Source of the DNA: Lachnospiraceae bacterium
GTDB lineage: Bacteria; Bacillota; Clostridia; Lachnospirales; Lachnospiraceae
Assembly: GCA_910575775.1 (NCBI GenBank)
Contig: CAJTEY010000002.1
Location: 186,001 to 250,000, forward strand
Direction of reading: 5' to 3'
Length of the DNA stretch: 64,000 nucleotides
Position numbers and translations under genes: made by a program. Of the stretch, positions 32,179 to 40,542 are shown one piece after another (within the stretch, counting starts at the first letter, position 1; each line of letters starts with the position of its first letter). The notes beneath the pieces are model-generated. The model did no database searches. It was not told the origin of the DNA and saw only the letters and a list, made by a program, of their open reading frames with translations.

Positions 32179-32943
32179 ATGAAAATAGAAAAAGTGAATG
32201 AGCAGCAGATCCGCTGCACCCTCACAAGAGAAGATCTGCTGAACCGTGAACTAAAGATCAGCGAACTGGCCTACGGCACGGAGAAGGCGAAGAGCCTCTT
32301 CCGCGATCTCATGCAGCAGGCCGCCTATGAATGCGGCTTTGAAGCTGAAGATATTCCTCTTATGATTGAAGCAATTCCCTTAAATGCCGAATGTATTGTG
32401 CTGATCGTCACCAAGGTGGAAGATCCCGAAGAGTTGGATACCCGTTTCGCCAAATTTGCACCCTCCGTCCATGACGACGAATATGAAATGGAAGAAGGCG
32501 AGGATAACGAGGCTCTGATGGAAGCTTTTGCCGACAGTGCGGACGAGGTTCTCAATCTCCTGCGCCGGATGAACGGAACAGACGAATCCGCTCCATCCCC
32601 GAAGTCCGCGTCCAAAGAAAAAGCACAGCCAGCCCTTCCTGGTCATGAGAAAACTGCCAGCCGTCTCTTCTCCTTCCGTTCTTTGCGCGAAGTGAGCAGA
32701 CTGGCGCGCGTAATCGGCACCTGCTGCGGAACCAATACTTTATATAAGGATGAGACCCGGGGCAATTATCTTCTGCTGTTCGCTCCCGAAGATCTTGATG
32801 CTGCGGATTTTAACCGTATCTGCAGTCTGATCTCAGAATACGGCAGACCCGAAAAGACAGCGAACTCCGCAAAGGCATATCTGGAAGAACATTTTGAGCC
32901 GTTGATAAAGGACAGCGCGGTGGAGACACTGGCGCGGATTTAA
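32179..32943 (+). CDS. mecA: ClpC adaptor protein MecA
   Basis: Adaptor that delivers substrates to the ClpCP protease; in Bacillus it controls competence and sporulation. The 254-aa protein has the N-terminal substrate-binding part (MKIEKVNEQQIRCTLTREDL, LMQQAAYECGFEAEDIPLMIEAIP), an acidic linker of about residues 95-150, and the C-terminal ClpC-binding part (LFSFRSLREVSRLARV, GNYLLLF, YLEEHFEPLIKDSAVETL). It is monocistronic between its promoter and a terminator. Confidence 0.93.
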   Translation: MKIEKVNEQQIRCTLTREDLLNRELKISELAYGTEKAKSLFRDLMQQAAYECGFEAEDIPLMIEAIPLNAECIVLIVTKVEDPEELDTRFAKFAPSVHDDEYEMEEGEDNEALMEAFADSADEVLNLLRRMNGTDESAPSPKSASKEKAQPALPGHEKTASRLFSFRSLREVSRLARVIGTCCGTNTLYKDETRGNYLLLFAPEDLDAADFNRICSLISEYGRPEKTANSAKAYLEEHFEPLIKDSAVETLARI

Positions 32944-32970: not shown

Positions 32971-33020
32971 AAATCCCACACTGCCATCCGGCTCCCCGGA
33001 AACAGCGTGGGATTTATTTT
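32971..33020 (+). terminator. Terminator of mecA
   Basis: Stem AATCCCAC-CTG with CAG-GTGGGATT followed by TTATTTT, 28 bp after the mecA stop codon. Confidence 0.88.
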
Positions 33021-33089
33021 CCTTATCTGCGTTGATGAATCGTCCGCATCATACATCTCCGGCAGCCGCTTCAACGAAATCTGTCTGCT

Positions 33090-33281
33090 TTAAACTGCCG
33101 CGATCTTCGCCATCAGATCATCCGCATTGATGCCGTGCACCATAGCTGCTTCCTCTAAGGTTTCTCCCTGTGCGGAAGGACAGCCGAGACAGTGCATACC
33201 GATCTCCATAAGCACGGGCGCGATATCCGGATTGATTCTGAGCGCCTCTCCTATTGTTGTATTCTTTGTGATATCTGCCAT
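33090..33281 (-). CDS. DUF1858-domain small redox-disulfide protein
   Basis: A 63-aa protein with the DUF1858 pattern: [38 protein letters not shown], with a CxxC pair (CLGC). The family is common in anaerobes and is thought to act in redox or Fe-S contexts; its role is not established. ATG 33281 is the start (GGAGG eight bases before); an upstream ATG at 33296 lies inside the Shine-Dalgarno region. Its promoter is divergent from that of pflB. Confidence 0.88.
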
Positions 33282-33354
33282 TTTATTTTCCTCCATACCT
33301 TCATTCTGTGATAGCTTCTAATAAAATATACATTTGTTTTCTGTGTCAGATACG

Positions 33355-33383
33355 ATTATAGAGGAAAGCTTCTGCGCAGTCAA
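33355..33383 (-). promoter_or_regulatory. Promoter of the DUF1858 gene
   Basis: TTGACT (33378-33383) and TATAAT (33355-33360) are separated by 17 bp on the minus strand. Confidence 0.75.
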
Positions 33384-33548
33384 GCCGGATATTTGTTATC
33401 AAGAAAATGTATATGCTTTCCGCTCATTATGGGGTGCAGAATTTCGAAATGTCAAGAACGGAAAATCGTCCAATCCACATTATTGCATTTTTCACAAAAT
33501 TTTCATGCTTTTTTTGGCATTTGTATGAGAAAAAGAACAAAGGTCGTC

Positions 33549-33578
33549 TTGACTGTGATTCGACACATGGCATATAAT
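33549..33578 (+). promoter_or_regulatory. Promoter of the split pyruvate formate-lyase operon
   Basis: TTGACT (33549-33554) and TATAAT (33573-33578) are separated by 18 bp; transcription should start near 33585, 100 bp before pflB. Confidence 0.75.
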
Positions 33579-33684
33579 ATTCTTACCGATTCAGAGTTAT
33601 GCGGCGTAATTATGCATGATTCCGAATGTAAAACATTTCACAGTTACTTTATTAAAAATTTTAAAATAGGAGGTTGGTACAAAA

Positions 33685-35724
33685 ATGAGACCAGAATGGA
33701 AAGACTTTGTAGGCGGCAAGTGGGACAAAGAAGTGAATGTCCGCGACTTTATCCAGAAAAACTATCACCCTTACGACGGTGACGAGGCATTCCTGGCTGA
33801 GCCTACACAGAACACAAAGGATCTTTGGGCACAGGTACTTGATCTGCAGAAACAGGAGCGTGAGGCAGGCGGCGTACTTGATATGGATACCAAGGTTGTG
33901 TCCACCATCACATCCCACGGCCCCGGCTATCTTGACAAGAGCAAAGAGACCATCGTAGGTTTCCAGACAGATAAGCCCTTCAAGCGTTCCTTACAGCCTT
34001 ACGGCGGTATCAGAATGGCTGAGAAAGCTTGCTCCGACAACGGCTACGAAGTAGATCCCGAGATCAGCGAGTTCTTCTCCACACACAGAAAGACACATAA
34101 CGCAGGCTGCTTCGATGCTTACAATGCTGAGATGAGAGCTTGTCGTTCTTCCCACATCATCACTGGTCTTCCGGATGCATATGGCCGCGGCCGTATCATC
34201 GGCGACTACAGACGTGTGGCTCTGTACGGTATCGACAGACTGATCGAAGACAAACAGGCACAGAAGGATTCTACCGGCCGCGTTATGACCGACGATGTAA
34301 TCCGTCTCCGCGAGGAGCTTTCCGAGCAGATGATTGCACTTAAGCTGATGAAGGAGATGGCTGCTTCTTACGGCTGCGATATTTCCAAGCCCGCTACTAA
34401 CGTACAGGAAGCTATCCAGGCTACTTACTTCGGATATCTTTGCTCCGTAAAAGAGCAGAACGGTGCAGCAATGTCCCTCGGACGTACATCTACATTCCTT
34501 GATATCTACGCAGAGAGAGACCTTGCTAACGGCACATTCACCGAGCAGCAGATCCAGGAGTTCGTTGACCACTTCATTATGAAGCTGCGTCTGATCAAGT
34601 TCGCCCGCACACCTGAGTACAACCAGATTTTCGCAGGCGATCCGGTATGGGTAACCGAGTCTCTCGGCGGTGTTGGCGTTGACGGCCGTCACATGGTAAC
34701 AAAGATGAGCTTCCGTTATCTGCACACACTGACCAACTTAGGTCCTTCACCCGAGCCGAACCTGACAGTTCTCTGGTCTACCAGACTTCCCGAGAACTGG
34801 AAGAAGTACTGCGCTAAGATGTCCATCCAGACCTCTTCCATCCAGTACGAGAACGATGATCTGATGAGAGTGACACACGGCGACGACTACGGTATCGCAT
34901 GCTGCGTATCTTCTATGGTTATCGGTAAGGAAATGCAGTTCTTCGGCGCACGCGCTAACCTTGCTAAGTGTCTGCTGTACGCATTAAACGGCGGCGTTGA
35001 TGAAGTAACCAAGAAACAGGTTGGTCCGAAATACCGCGCTGTTACAGGCGATGTGCTTGACTATGACGATGTTCTGGATAAGTTCCTTGACATGATGGAG
35101 TGGCAGGCAGACGTGTATGTAAATACACTGAACATCATCCACTACATGCATGACAAGTACTGCTATGAGAGAGCAGAGATGGCTCTCCATGACAGAGACG
35201 TTAAGCGTTACTTCGCAACCGGTGTTGCAGGTCTGTCCATCGTGGCTGACTCCTTATCTGCCATCAAGTATGCTAAGGTTGAGCCCATCAGAGATGAGGA
35301 CGGCATCATCGTTGACTTTAAGACAACCGGCGACTTCCCGAAATATGGTAACGATGACGACCGCGTAGATGAGATCGCACAGGAGATCGTTCACAAGTTT
35401 ATGACCGCGATCAGAAGACATCATACCTACAGAAACGGTGTTCCTACAACCTCTATCCTTACCATTACTTCCAACGTAACCTACGGTAAGGCTACCGGTA
35501 ACACACCTGACGGACGTAAGAAAGGCCAGCCTTTCGCACCCGGCGCTAACCCGATGCACGGCCGTGATACCCACGGTGCAGTTGCTTCCCTGTCTTCTGT
35601 ATCCAAGCTTCCGTTCAATGATGCACAGGATGGTATCTCCAATACCTTCACCATCATTCCGGGCGCACTCGGCAAAGAGGATCAGGTATTTGCAGGTGAC
35701 CTTGAGGTAGACCTCAGCAAATAA
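33685..35724 (+). CDS. pflB: Pyruvate formate-lyase core subunit lacking the glycyl-radical domain
   Basis: Cytosolic enzyme that cleaves pyruvate with CoA to acetyl-CoA and formate during fermentation. The 679-aa protein aligns by eye with the PFL family throughout. It has the [20 protein letters not shown] region, the active-site pair Cys406-Cys407 in GIACCVSSM, and the late segments [22 protein letters not shown] and [15 protein letters not shown]. It then stops at [19 protein letters not shown], whereas normal PFL (about 750-760 aa) continues for about 75 residues with the RVSGYAV glycyl-radical loop. That part is supplied by the gene at 36088. The stop is followed by a normal intergenic region and a hairpin, not by a frameshifted continuation. 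AGGAGG precedes the ATG. Codon use looks more biased than in neighbours, as in highly expressed genes. Confidence 0.95.
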
Positions 35725-35727
35725 TCG

Positions 35728-35753
35728 TGGTAAATTCCTGTGGAATAAACCAC
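35728..35753 (+). other. Hairpin directly after pflB
   Basis: GTGGT/ACCAC with an inner TTCC/GGAA pairing lies 4 bp after the pflB stop codon, without a T-run. It may stabilise the pflB mRNA end or set the ratio of core to small subunits. Confidence 0.4.
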
Positions 35754-35807
35754 ACGGGCACTGCTCCGCAGGCTCGGCATACTATGAAATAAAAGGAGTT
35801 GTTGATT

Positions 35808-36020
35808 ATGGATGATAAGCAAATGATAGATGATTTTATCAAGATGATGGATTCCGGGATGGCGAATGGCGTCGGGCATGTGAATGTGGACGTTGATAAC
35901 AATGCCGACAACTCTAAAAATGTGCAGACCATGGGGTGCACGGATTGCTCCCGCACCCCGCTGGCCTGCAGCGTGCCTACCCTCCACGATGGATTGGACG
36001 GGTTGGAAGATTTTAAATAG
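35808..36020 (+). CDS. 70-aa truncated paralogue of the glycyl-radical subunit with Cys-rich tail
   Basis: An uncharacterised protein encoded between the PFL core and the glycyl-radical subunit. Its residues 6-31 (MIDDFIKMMDSGMANGVGHV and following NVDVDN) align without gaps to residues 6-31 of the 79-aa radical subunit ([20 protein letters not shown] and following NVNVLN), with eight identities and many conservative changes. The part that would carry the radical glycine is replaced by an unrelated tail with three cysteines (MGCTDCSRTPLAC: Cys44, Cys47, Cys54) and an acidic end. AAGGAGT precedes the ATG. It may dock on the same surface of PflB as the radical subunit. The function is unknown. 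Confidence 0.82.
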   Translation: MDDKQMIDDFIKMMDSGMANGVGHVNVDVDNNADNSKNVQTMGCTDCSRTPLACSVPTLHDGLDGLEDFK

Positions 36021-36087
36021 CATTGAGCCACACGAATATGCATGACACAATGCAAAACAAAATATAGTAAAACAGGAGGACAATACA

Positions 36088-36327
36088 ATGGCAGCAAATG
36101 CTCAGGTAGATAACTTAGTAAACTTATTAGATGGTTATGCAACAAAGGGTGGCCATCACCTTAACGTAAACGTGCTCAACAGAGATATGTTACTGGATGC
36201 GCAGAAGCATCCTGAGAACTATCCTCAGCTGACCATCCGCGTATCCGGCTATGCAGTAAACTTCATCAAGCTGACACCGGAACAGCAGGCGGACGTTATC
36301 TCCCGTACTTTCCACGAGAGTATCTGA
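36088..36327 (+). CDS. Separate glycyl-radical domain subunit of pyruvate formate-lyase
   Basis: A 79-aa protein equal to the C-terminal domain of normal [22 protein letters not shown], then [30 protein letters not shown]. Gly54 in RVSGYAV is the residue that PflA converts to the glycyl radical. It resembles the E. coli spare-part protein GrcA (YfiD), but here the partner PflB has no glycyl domain of its own, so this protein should be essential for activity. It has its own AGGAGG and begins where the core subunit ends. A terminator follows. Confidence 0.94.
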
Positions 36328-36351
36328 TCACGTCAAAACCAAAGAGTGCAG

Positions 36352-36386
36352 GAAGCCTTGCGACACGTCGCAGGGCTTCTTTTTTC
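36352..36386 (+). terminator. Terminator after the split PFL genes
   Basis: A long stem GAAGCC-TTGCGAC with GTCGCA-GGGCTTC followed by seven T residues, 25 bp after the radical-subunit gene. It separates the PFL genes from pflA. Confidence 0.9.
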
Positions 36387-36500
36387 TGGATTTTAATCGG
36401 ACTATATGCTATGATATAAGTAATCCGAAATATTTGTAATAAAACAGAATAACCCGTAAACAAAGTACAAAAAATGAATAATCGAAGGGTTGGTGATTAT

Positions 36501-36686
36501 ATGCCGAGTGCAGCAGATATTATCAGAGATTCAATCAACGAGCTTTCAAGAGTACAAAATTGGATGCTGGCTATTGAGGACAAAGACTCAGCCGTCTATC
36601 GCTCGATGTATGATAGATATTTAGAGTTAAAAGTGACGTTAACCTCTTTGGGCGTGAATCTTACAGAATTGGACAGAATAAAATAA
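36501..36686 (+). CDS. Small hypothetical protein upstream of pflA
   Basis: A 61-aa, mostly helical, charged protein (MPSAADIIRDSINELSRVQN, then MYDRYLELKVTLTSLGVNL) with no cysteines or membrane segment. I recognise no family. ATG 36501 is preferred since GGTGAT lies just before it; an ATG nine codons upstream has no Shine-Dalgarno sequence. It lies 28 bp before pflA and after a terminator, so it is probably transcribed with pflA from a weak or unrecognised promoter near 36390-36450. Confidence 0.6.
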   Translation: MPSAADIIRDSINELSRVQNWMLAIEDKDSAVYRSMYDRYLELKVTLTSLGVNLTELDRIK

Positions 36687-36714
36687 AAGAATAAGCAGAA
36701 AGAAGGTTTTTGAG

Positions 36715-37482
36715 ATGCAAGGAAGAATCCATTCCTTAGAAAGCTTTGGCACGGTAGACGGCCCGGGAACACGCTTTGTGGTATTTGTACAGGGGTGCCC
36801 GATGCGGTGTGCATACTGCCACAATCCCGACACCTGGGAGATGAACGGCGGCACGCTGATGGAGCCGGAATATATTTTTGAACAGTATAAGAGAAACGAG
36901 GCGTTTTACAACGGCGGCGGCATTACCGTCACCGGCGGAGAACCGCTGATGCAGGTAGATTTTCTGATTGATCTCTTCACTATTGCAAAGAAAAATAATG
37001 TCCACACCTGCATCGACTCCTCGGGCATTGCCTACAAGAAAAATGCAAACCCGGAATGGCTCGCGAAATTGGATCGCCTGATGGAATTGACTGATTTGGT
37101 CATGCTTGATATCAAGCATATTGATCCCGAAAAGCATAAGGAGCTTACCTCCCAGCCCAACGACGGGATTCTCGCGTTTGCAGAGTATCTGAATGAAAAG
37201 CATGTGGACATGTGGATCCGCCATGTCATTGTACCGGGCATCACGGATGACGACAAATATCTGTACCAGCTCGGCTATTTCATCGGCGCTTTCACGAATC
37301 TGAAAGCCCTGGACGCGCTTCCCTATCACACAATGGGGGAATCCAAGTACGAGAAGCTGAACATGGAATACAAGCTCAAAGGCGTTCCCGCTATGGAAAA
37401 GGATAAACTGATTGACAAGAAAAAAGTCATTCTGGACGGTATCCGCAAACGGCGGGAAGAGCTCGGCATACACGCGTCATAG
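36715..37482 (+). CDS. pflA: Pyruvate formate-lyase activating enzyme
   Basis: Radical SAM enzyme that abstracts hydrogen from the glycyl residue of PFL, here from the separate 79-aa subunit. The 255-aa protein has the [4Fe-4S] motif CPMRCAYC (CxxxCxxC) near residue 28, preceded by FGTVDGPGTRFVVFVQG, the SAM-binding GGGITVTGGEPLMQ and a C-terminal YHTMGESKYEKL segment. The length is normal for PflA without extra ferredoxin clusters. AGAAGG precedes the ATG. Confidence 0.96.
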   Translation: MQGRIHSLESFGTVDGPGTRFVVFVQGCPMRCAYCHNPDTWEMNGGTLMEPEYIFEQYKRNEAFYNGGGITVTGGEPLMQVDFLIDLFTIAKKNNVHTCIDSSGIAYKKNANPEWLAKLDRLMELTDLVMLDIKHIDPEKHKELTSQPNDGILAFAEYLNEKHVDMWIRHVIVPGITDDDKYLYQLGYFIGAFTNLKALDALPYHTMGESKYEKLNMEYKLKGVPAMEKDKLIDKKKVILDGIRKRREELGIHAS

Positions 37483-37535
37483 ACCTTGCGCCATGCACCC
37501 GATTCAGAAAGCGGATACTTTCCAATCATTAAAAA

Positions 37536-37569
37536 AGGGACAGAATCAAAATCGATTCCGTCCCTCTTT
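37536..37569. terminator. Bidirectional terminator between pflA and the histidine kinase gene
   Basis: Stem AGGGAC-GAATC with GATTC-GTCCCT, followed by CTTTTTAT on the plus strand and TTTTTT on the minus strand, between convergent genes. Confidence 0.88.
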
Positions 37570-40542
37570 TTATACGACCCACCTCTTCAGCGCTTCCTCC
37601 AGCCTCTCGATATCCACAGGCTTGGAAATGTGATCGTTCATTCCGGCATCTTTCGCCCTCTTAATATCATCCGCAAAGGCGTCCGCCGTCATGGCCACAA
37701 TAGGTATTTTCTTTAAATCCTCGCGCTCTAGAGCACGGATTGCCTCTGCGGCCTCGTAGCCGTTCATAACAGGCATCTGAATGTCCATAAAGATCAGATC
37801 AAAGTACCCCGGCTCTTTCTCCTGCACAGCCTCTACAGCCAGTTTTCCGTTCACCGCCATCTCTACCTGTATGCCCACCATGCCAAGGAGTTCTTTGGCC
37901 ACCTCGATATTGATTTCATTATCCTCCACAAGCAGTACACGCCTGCCCGTAAAATCCTGCTGGCTGAATGTTTCCAGCGCCGAGATTTTCTCCTCCTGAT
38001 TCGGCTCCAGCGCCTCCTTGAGCACACGCACCAGGCGGGATTTAAACAGCGGTTTCCCGATAAAGGCATCCACTCCTGCATCCAGCGCTTCCGCCTCAAT
38101 ATCGGCCCAGTCGTAGGCCGACTGAATGATAATCAGAATATCATCACCGACTGTCTTTCGAATATCTTTCGCCGTCTCCAGCCCGTCCATGCCGGGCATT
38201 TTCCAGTCGAGGATGATCACTTCAATGCGCCTTCTGTCCTCCGCTGAAATGCGTGCCAGCGCCGCTTCTCCGCTGGTCACATACTCTGCTTCCATGCCAA
38301 GACTCCTTAACATCTCACAGGAGCTCTCGCATGCTGTCTCTTCATCATCCACAACCAGCACAGGCATCCCATTGTATGCGGCCAGATCAGCCGCCGTCAT
38401 GTCATCGAGTTTCAGATATACAATAACCGTAAATCTGGAGCCTTTTCCCAGCTCACTCTCTACCTTAATATCACCCCTCATCATGCGGGCGATATTGACC
38501 GCGATCGACATACCAAGTCCCGTACCCTCAATCTTGCCCGTCCGGGAATCCGCCGCCCGGGAAAACGGCTCAAAAATTTTCTGAATGTACTCCGGCTCCA
38601 TGCCAATGCCGGTATCCTCAAAGATAAACTCATAGCAGCCGCATCCCTCGATGCTGGAAGGCTTCTCCACAATGTGAATGCTGATTTTTCCGCCCGAAGG
38701 CGTGAACTTCACCGCATTGCCCATAATATTCATAAAAATCTGCTGCAGATGCTGCTCGTCTCCGACCACATTCTCGTGCTCGAGCTTGGCAATACCCGCA
38801 TTCAGCGCAAGACCCTTGAACTCCATCTGCGAGCGGAATACGGTCAGAAGGCTTTCTATCGTATCAGAGATATTAAAGGCGCCTTCTGTCAGGCTCACCT
38901 TGCCGCTCTCGATACGGCTCATATCCAGTACTTCATTGATCAGGCCAAGCAGATGCTTGCCGGAAACCATGATCTTCTCAAGCGCATCCAGAACACGGTC
39001 TTTCTCTTCTATATGCATTGTTGCCACAGAAGTCATACCCAGTATCGCGTTCATGGGTGTACGGATATCGTGGCTCATCCGGGAAAGGAAATCACTCTTG
39101 GCATGGTTAGCCGCCTCAGCGCGTTCCACAGCCTGCTCCAGCATTTCCTTCTGCTCCTCCTCACGGCGGATCATATCGTCGATGCTTCGGATTGCTATTG
39201 TAATGGCGGAAGGCTCTCCTTCTTCCATCTCAGCAACCGTAATGGCAATGGAACACCACTCGTAACCCTCTTCCCCCATTTTCTTTCTCTGGAACTGTAA
39301 TTCCATGTGATCCCTGTCGGAAAGCTGTTTTCGGATATTGTCAATAGCCAGGAACTCCTTTACCAGCTCAATATGCTCCTGCATGATAACACCGCTCTCA
39401 AAACTTTCCGAAACCATGTCATCAAACGTTTCCCTCCTGGGTTCCTCTTCGCAGTCCGGGTAAACGGTATCGCAGGTATTTTCCTTCAGATTGATATAAT
39501 AAATTGCTCTGCAGGCGCGCGCCGTGCTGTCCATCGCATTTCGGTAAACTTTCGTCCGCGCCGCTATTCTGTCATTTTCTTCCCTCAGCGTCTGATTGCG
39601 TTTCTGGTTTCCGTAATCTCTGATTAACTGCATTAGGAACACAATAGCGCCCAGTACAATGAGTACGGCGCTGATATAGTAGAAGGTATCGGTGCCGGAC
39701 AGGATCTTGTCCCTGGGTATGGTCAGAATGCCAATCCATCCATTGTCCAAATGCTGGAAATAGACATTTCGGACAATTCCATCCATAGGCATCAGATTCT
39801 CCAGCACATGATTGCTGCTGTTACAGATTGCGCTATCTATGTAGCTGTCCACCAGCTCCTGAAATTCCTCCCGCTCGTAGTCCCAGCAGGATTTGTAGTA
39901 GAGCAGCCCCCCGTTTTCATCCACCAGATAGAATGAGGACTCATCGGGTAAAACCAGATCCTCATTCTCCAGATCAAAAAAGGAAGGCAGCAGATCAACT
40001 GCCAGATAACTTCCCGTCGAGGGAACTACCTTGCACATGGTGATCACCGGCAGCTCCGTCATATAATCCGTGTAAACAGGGGAAACATAGACATCCCCTC
40101 CTGCCGCAGCCGCTTCCCGGTAATAGCCTGCCTCCAGAAAGTTATATTTATAAAGCTCTTCCAGTTCGGGATTGTTTGACACGATCTCCGTGCCGTTAAA
40201 CGCCTTACCATAAATCTGAATATTTTCTTCGCCATATACTTTGATGAGGCCGTCCATAAACGGATACAGCCCTTCCCTAAGCTCTTCGATCGTGATATCT
40301 TCCTTCTCACGCTGCTCAATGTAGTTTACGCTGATCTCCAGAATGGCCTCACATGTGCGGATGCCGCTCTCCTCCGCTCCCGTATAGTTCTCCACCAGAG
40401 CCAGCCCCATCTGATTGGTGTTCGTCCAGAGAGTCTCGCGCAGAACCAGGGTGCAGAACACGACAACAAGGATAAAAGATCCCAGCACCAAAATATTATT
40501 GCGCATTTTTTTTATTAGCGATTTTTCTTTCATTCCGTTCAT
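37570..40542 (-). CDS. Hybrid sensor histidine kinase with two receiver domains
   Basis: A 990-aa membrane kinase. It has membrane segments at about 15-35 and 285-310 bracketing an extracellular Cache-like sensor, then a PAS-like linker and HisKA with phosphoacceptor His491 ([12 protein letters not shown]). The HATPase domain has [19 protein letters not shown] and GTGLGMSI. The first receiver has Asp779 (LDWKMPG) and the second Asp920 ([11 protein letters not shown]). No output domain or partner regulator gene is adjacent, so signalling probably goes through the receivers or a distant regulator. The stimulus is unknown. Confidence 0.93.

Follow-up and report, generated by a model that had tools for sequence, protein, structure and literature searches.

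A locus on a contig of a Lachnospiraceae bacterium (CAJTEY010000002.1) raises the question whether pyruvate formate-lyase (PFL) can be an enzyme whose glycyl radical resides on a separate small protein, and what role a further small protein encoded between the two parts could have. PFL is a main route from pyruvate to acetyl-coenzyme A (acetyl-CoA) in gut fermenters, and oxygen cuts its chain at the glycyl radical. In the window, the 64,000-nucleotide stretch of DNA analysed here, three genes lie head to tail: that of the PFL core, that of a 70-amino acid protein termed mid, and that of the radical subunit GrcA3. The gene of the activase PflA lies past a terminator. An earlier reading of the sequence (the original prediction) had proposed a split PFL made of the first and the third of these proteins.

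The core open reading frame (ORF) encodes 679 amino acids, including the adjacent catalytic pair Cys406-Cys407, and passed the cut-off of the curated PFL model TIGR01255 (1092.2 bits, cut-off 994.2). The match covered positions 2-666 of 744 and stopped ahead of the glycyl radical domain, which is carried by a separate ORF: the Pfam family Gly_radical is divided at its position 51, with positions 1-51 on the core and 51-106 on the small protein. When aligned to E. coli PFL, the core corresponded to residues 10-682 and the radical subunit to residues 683-758. This break (682/683) precedes a helix and strand beta10, both belonging to the radical domain. The comparisons with TIGR01255, Pfam and E. 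coli PFL bore out the earlier claim of a core that has the Cys pair and ends before the radical domain, and the last of them also placed the break ahead of that domain, as had been predicted. E. coli PflB (TIGR01255; PDB entries 1h16 and 2pfl) is alike in the core region 10-682, the Cys pair, the PflA-type activase and the RVSGYAV motif, but it is one chain of 759 residues, whereas the window encodes two chains cut at 682/683 and a third protein. The split enzyme is predicted to cleave pyruvate, with the use of CoA, into acetyl-CoA and formate.

The radical subunit, encoded 363 bp downstream of the core, consists of 79 amino acids and carries Gly54 within RVSGYAV. It passed the cut-off of the NCBIfam model NF038360, GrcA3 (160.7 bits, cut-off 158), which, as far as the name of the model tells, regards GrcA3 as a 'cofactor' and describes neither a split core nor a third gene. 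This match and the alignment to residues 683-758 of E. coli PFL confirmed its identification as the radical subunit, and the AGGAGG at 36074-36079 agrees with the view that it has a start and a Shine-Dalgarno site of its own. It resembles E. coli GrcA (YfiD), likewise a stand-alone glycyl radical domain (6owr matched residues 19-79, E 9e-25). E. coli GrcA is a spare for a complete PFL and has a disordered N-terminal arm of 60 residues. In contrast, in the GrcA3 of the window the domain begins at about residue 8, with about 7 residues ahead of the docking half and no arm of about 60 residues, and the genome has no complete PFL. In the whole source genome (4.88 Mb, 97.25% complete) PF01228 was found in four places, namely the core, the only GrcA3 copy and two NrdD frames for anaerobic ribonucleotide reductase (945 and 854 bits against NF006732); no full-length PFL was found by this search. 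Within the limits of an assembly that is 97% complete, the radical protein therefore cannot be the spare of a complete PFL. The gene content thus supports the original prediction that the radical subunit is obligatory, and we regard a split PFL with an obligatory radical subunit as very likely. It is plausible that this subunit is replaceable after oxygen damage.

A quite different explanation would be ordinary decay or an artefact, with the ORFs as remnants of a disrupted pfl gene. The near relatives of the locus (80 loci, the best-ranking ones among at least 586) comprised 55 loci with a core and 25 with none in reach. All 55 shared the same core end and had a separate radical ORF, from which it follows that the break is not a sequencing frameshift, in agreement with what had been assumed earlier. 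All three genes are under purifying selection: mean dN/mean dS (nonsynonymous over synonymous divergence), calculated from 19 non-independent pairs, was 0.054 for mid, compared with 0.040 (core) and 0.048 (radical subunit). The shared architecture and the selection rule out a frameshift or a pseudogene. Taken together with the single clade that split cores form across families and orders, and with the solved split-type cores in the PDB (see below), they refute the decay or artefact explanation, for which no point in favour was found and whose probability we consider negligible.

The original prediction had described the spacer between core and radical subunit as structured. The folding of the initial segment is indeed better than that of shuffled sequences (Table 1), but 213 of the 363 bases belong to a conserved third gene, mid, which had been overlooked, as had the Cys tail that replaces mid elsewhere (see below). 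Mid was found by translating the spacers of related loci, each of which contained an ORF. It is preceded by its own AGGAG (35794-35798), and Shine-Dalgarno-like sites precede mid and GrcA3 in most of 58 records. Mid occurred once in each of the 55 near-relative split loci, but it was absent from the 25 loci that had no core within reach and from 12 loci with a full-length PFL. It belongs to no Pfam or NCBIfam family, no PDB chain was matched by the mid profile at E 5, and none of 12 pattern matches in viral contigs was a relative. With high confidence, mid works with the split PFL.

Residues 1-32 of mid are homologous to the docking half of GrcA3 and are followed by the VQTMGCTDCSRTPLACSVPTLHDGLD tail, with cysteines at positions 44, 47 and 54. 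The glycyl radical loop RVSGY is absent, and the Cys tail stands in its place. Over 106 mids D15 and C47 were found in all, H24 in 105 and C54 in 104 sequences; the two mids lacking C54 are truncated by a stop, and the first Cys (44) is not constant. The tail contains two near-invariant cysteines in the pattern C-x4..7-A-C-x-[VI]-P-[TN]-L. The mids of loci L148 (genome G009) and L156 (G019) stop right after CxxC, without the ACSVPTL part. Small Cys-bearing subunits are partners of two other glycyl radical enzymes, 4-hydroxyphenylacetate decarboxylase and benzylsuccinate synthase. By this likeness mid could be a subunit binding metal or an iron-sulphur (FeS) cluster, as the CxxCx6C spacing in most near relatives and the invariant-looking H24 would allow. 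In those two systems the FeS clusters have more ligands, and the small subunits are no copies of the radical domain. Over the 106 mids the possible ligands are two constant Cys and one His. Against a metal-binding role, only two Cys are constant over the wider set, Cys44 being lost in many, and the mid profile matched no PDB chain; we consider this role quite improbable.

Homology between the N-terminal half of mid and GrcA3 was detected by profile-profile comparison with hhalign (E 1.5e-5 over 32 columns; 3.9e-7 when 106 sequences were used). The GrcA3 model was weakly matched by 27 of 32 mids (best E 2.8e-4), and the mid profile (positions 2-34, approximately) matched GrcA3s and full-length PFL frames from other Clostridia with E values from 1e-6 to 8e-4. 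In genomes G082 and G093 the PFL model passed the core stop into mid and placed it at PFL positions up to 700-704. The copied part corresponds to about residues 683-712 of E. coli PFL, i.e. to the helix and strand beta10. This docking-half homology would also be expected of a dummy subunit, with the PFL dimer taking GrcA3 on one side and mid on the other and half-of-sites activity being fixed in this way. We consider this very improbable, as core-fused Cys tails would act on both sides, and as a recent in vivo study argues against half-site reactivity in E. coli (PMC12338860).

The source genome also encodes an unlinked, 64-amino acid paralog of mid (C23:3379-3570; loci L343 and L345; E 3.3e-10 to the mid profile), in which IDDxIxMLD..GVSRLKV is followed by YHHGRCDVGSPWAxG and to which no Pfam or NCBIfam model corresponds. 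This paralog was present in 17 of 150 genomes of the family, 16 of them with mid and one (G074) unresolved, and in 5 of 343 genomes of the class, all five with mid.

How mid is distributed was followed in a survey of 150 genomes of the family, nearly one per genus. By our reading of the search output, 56 of these genomes had a split core, 65 a full-length PFL and 3 both. A true mid match was obtained in 36 genomes, all with a split core, and in none of the 62 that had full-length PFL only. Fifty-four split loci were read, leaving out the window's own locus and that of G016, whose core lies on two contig ends. In 33 loci mid was present and the core tail had no Cys; in 19 there was no mid and the core had a C-terminal extension with 2-3 Cys. 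The two never occurred together, and neither was found at the remaining two loci, one of which belongs to a genome with mid on another contig. The Cys tails of the cores resemble the C-terminal part of mid: a hidden Markov model (HMM) built from mids only matched 12 of 24 tails at E ≤0.0081 (best 3e-13), and for 16 of the 24 the E value was below 0.19, the lowest reached by any of 480 shuffled tails. The tails of G500 and G618, with two Cys each, are outside the 24. A genome scan with the mid HMM also matched the end of three core frames. In three other families of the order mid was present in all 19 complete split loci (20 of the split matches listed were taken, and L280, at a contig edge, was left out). 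Of 12 split loci that belong to the class but to other orders, 2 had mid, 7 a Cys-bearing tail and 3 neither. At L311 (G467) the order is core-GrcA3-mid rather than core-mid-GrcA3, and there is one TGA within the mid match. Among 70 full-length PFLs of the family only one (locus L201, see below) had more than one Cys in the linker; a single Cys was noted in 11, in 4 of them outside the linker.

The split is old. In both core trees the split cores formed one clade with a value of 99 in the Shimodaira-Hasegawa-like approximate likelihood ratio test (58 of 124 rows in one tree and 86 of 116 in the other), and this clade spans Lachnospiraceae and other Clostridia. The second tree was built without L314, whose core is in two frames, and, by our choice, without 51 of the 70 full-length rows of the family. 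Single-chain PFLs were also found within the split clade. Three of them (G146, G122 and G091) form one sub-clade and have neither linker Cys nor mid. A fourth, from G079 (L201), is a chain of 774 amino acids with a three-Cys insert between the core and the radical domain, and is thus a natural fusion of all elements. The two f79 loci, split and without any Cys element, fell outside the split clade at an unresolved fork, and may represent a second split. The fewest changes needed on the tree were 14 for mid and 11 for the tail, or 9 and 6 if only starred branches were trusted, all counts being those of a quick tree without bootstrap. The two states have switched repeatedly.

Starting from the split itself, the lack of another PFL in the genome, the coding capacity and conservation of mid, the homologies of its two halves and the either-or pattern, we infer how the parts might act together. 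The enzyme would consist of three proteins: the core with the catalytic Cys, a separately made GrcA3 that would complete the barrel and bear the radical, and mid. On an empty or oxygen-damaged core mid would occupy the berth of the radical subunit, its dithiol tail would shield the active site left open there and guard the two catalytic Cys, and mid would mark the core for loading. Intact GrcA3 would then displace mid, and PflA would install the radical. Mid would in this way replace the recognition element (residues 696-733) that a damaged E. coli PFL keeps and GrcA needs, and in related bacteria the same Cys tail is fused to the core. Of the roles considered we favour this placeholder or recognition role, though tentatively, as a possibility that falls somewhat short of being probable. 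Similar caution applies to the notion that mid is a decoy of the consumable radical domain, one that has a dithiol for the radical loop and may hold the berth between successive radical subunits; the Cys element of such a decoy would have been moved repeatedly between gene and core C-terminus, and lost where the enzyme returned to one chain.

Work on the E. coli proteins bears on this proposal. In PMC8683613, the construct tPFL (residues 1-695, i.e. with residues 696-759 removed) is described as catalytically sound but hardly binding or activating YfiD: with the core cut at 695, binding of GrcA/YfiD was not detectable and 32-fold less radical was formed. PFL residues 696-733 and YfiD residues 1-60 serve recognition according to the same source. 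The poor binding of YfiD by the E. coli core cut at 695 means that a simple two-part swap is not self-evident, and the natural break lies about 13 residues before the end of tPFL. Mid copies approximately residues 683-712 and adds a dithiol tail, as would be expected of a stand-in for the recognition element, since the split enzyme lacks both residues 696-733 and the YfiD arm. Alternatively, mid or the tail could recruit the activase by binding PflA (or GrcA3) and bringing it to the core, thereby replacing the 60-residue arm. GrcA3 has indeed only about 7 residues before its docking half, and YfiD residues 1-60 matter for binding and activation in E. coli (PMC8683613). On the other hand, E. 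coli PflA needs no such factor, and recruitment leaves unexplained the GrcA-like half of mid, which predicts the berth of GrcA as the binding site. We therefore consider an activase recruiter improbable.

The main rival of the placeholder is a redox guard or radical quencher. According to this explanation, which we hold to be rather unlikely, the Cys pair near the bound radical subunit would give a hydrogen atom to the glycyl radical, or form a disulfide with the catalytic Cys pair under oxygen, and thus reversibly switch off the enzyme, the docking half being an anchor only. It would account for the fact that the cysteines are the most constant part of mid (C47 in 106 and C54 in 104 of 106, the other two being truncated) and that the tails on cores keep the Cys but not the anchor. 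It also agrees with G079, where the Cys segment and the glycyl domain are on one chain, and with the divergent neighbour gene for a DUF1858 redox-disulfide protein, which lies no farther than 1.5 kb upstream in 31/39 near relatives and is present at 21/50 split loci of the survey. That gene was absent, however, from the other 29 survey loci and present near 2 of 12 full-length PFLs. The three re-fused PFLs, which bear the radical as any PFL does, have lost the Cys element, and the two truncated mids keep the first Cys region only; both observations weigh against a redox guard.

The loss in the re-fused enzymes fits the placeholder, but it is a single event, and several other observations weigh against the placeholder as well. 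G079 demonstrates that a Cys element does not preclude a bound radical domain. A GrcA-like half is missing from the core-fused tails, which makes mimicry of the docking half dispensable, and 7 of the 24 tails (of the DCACCEPN type and others) were not matched by the mid HMM even at E 10. No Cys element could be found for the split loci of G110 and G548 and the f79 pair, at least four loci in all, from which it follows that a split PFL can work without one. Finally, AlphaFold models of core plus mid and of core plus mid plus radical subunit, for which read-through chains from locus L005 and shallow alignments were used, were poor (mean predicted local distance difference test scores 53.0 and 50.8) and were not used; the proposed docking is based on homology.

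Split-type cores are already in the PDB, and the radical protein has been modelled by NCBI as GrcA3, which partly answers the doubt in the original prediction as to whether a split PFL had been described. Entries 38la and 38lb, both named 'Formate acetyltransferase' (687 and 739 residues), matched the core and were absent from the glycyl-domain matches at E 0.001. The former ends in LGKED, whereas the latter extends farther at its C-terminus, where it has a Cys-bearing stretch (a very weak match, 2.7 bits), and a matching mid is absent from both. The open-access literature searched, with subscription papers and preprints mostly outside it, yielded no account of a split PFL or of mid, and no library searched contained mid or the either-or Cys pattern. 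Annotation is affected too: by the searches made here mid is without a curated Pfam or NCBIfam model, and a core stopping at about 680 residues can pass for a truncated PFL. Many gut bacteria have the oxygen-sensitive part of PFL as a separate and possibly swappable protein, of 79 amino acids in the window, within a clade that extends across Lachnospiraceae and other Clostridia, and a small Cys-bearing partner that half imitates this part usually accompanies the split. With the weak part separate, the survival of brief oxygen exposure by strict anaerobes becomes testable with three small genes, and mid, although without a library family, offers a handle on how the radical subunit is loaded, guarded and exchanged.

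Additional solo GrcA3 genes were common among the near relatives. Twenty-five solo loci had 0.9 kb or more of upstream sequence, and in 15 of them a CRP/FNR-type gene lay just upstream (L009, L016, L018, L039, L040, L059, L060, L066, L068, L069, L070, L073, L080, L194 and L196; the match in L194 was weak and cut), whereas this was not seen at any of the 55 split loci. GrcA3-like genes were also found on 12 viral-labelled IMG/VR contigs (L331-L342) of up to 333 kb. Three of these (L335, L336 and L342) carried a PFL core too, and in the other nine there was none in the flank (≤3 kb). The occurrence of solo and viral-labelled GrcA3 genes fits the idea that the radical subunit could be a consumable part. 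Y06I, met here in a reference list alone, is the phage T4 counterpart of GrcA/YfiD.

The features of the locus are collected in Table 1.

Table 1. Features of the split PFL locus and neighbouring genes, in window coordinates
Feature	Position	Strand	Basis
MecA-like adaptor protein	32179..32943	+	Pfam MecA, 233.5 bits
DUF1858/prismane-associated redox-disulfide protein	33090..33296	-	
Promoter-like TTGACT-18-TATAAT upstream of core	33549..33578	+	11/12 matches; weak: 9 sites in the region vs 7.0 ± 2.9 in shuffles
PFL core subunit, 679 aa, without glycyl radical loop	33685..35724	+	ORF, TIGR01255, Pfam, PDB alignment
Codons of catalytic Cys406-Cys407	34900..34905	+	Computed from protein position
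RNA hairpin region, core to mid	35724..35790	+	35715-35800: -24.1 kcal/mol, shuffles -16.2 ± 2.65, z -2.97
Third gene mid, 70 aa	35808..36020	+	ORF, conservation, profile-profile homology
Radical subunit GrcA3, 79 aa, glycyl radical Gly54	36088..36327	+	ORF, NF038360, PDB alignment
Intrinsic terminator after core-mid-grcA3	36350..36381	+	14 pairs, T run; 36328-36420: z -3.54
ORF, 70 aa	36474..36686	+	
PFL activase PflA, 255 aa	36715..37482	+	TIGR02493, 292.4 bits (cut-off 231.75)
ORF, 990 aa	37570..40542	-	By eye like a hybrid sensor kinase

Folding of the segment between mid and GrcA3 (36017-36090) was no better than that of shuffled sequences (z -0.50), and a search of 33000-37600 against Rfam gave nothing at the gathering score. 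The DUF1858 gene adjoins the operon divergently; as a fixed partner it was rejected as unspecific, being absent at more than half of the survey split loci (29/50) and present at 2/12 full-length PFLs. A gene for a MecA-like adaptor protein lies farther upstream. The 70-amino acid ORF between the terminator and pflA belongs to no family, and its relatives beyond this genome were confined to L007, L013 and G049, a genome of the same genus. The 990-amino acid ORF is convergent with pflA and, by eye, contains response-regulator domains in addition to the kinase part.

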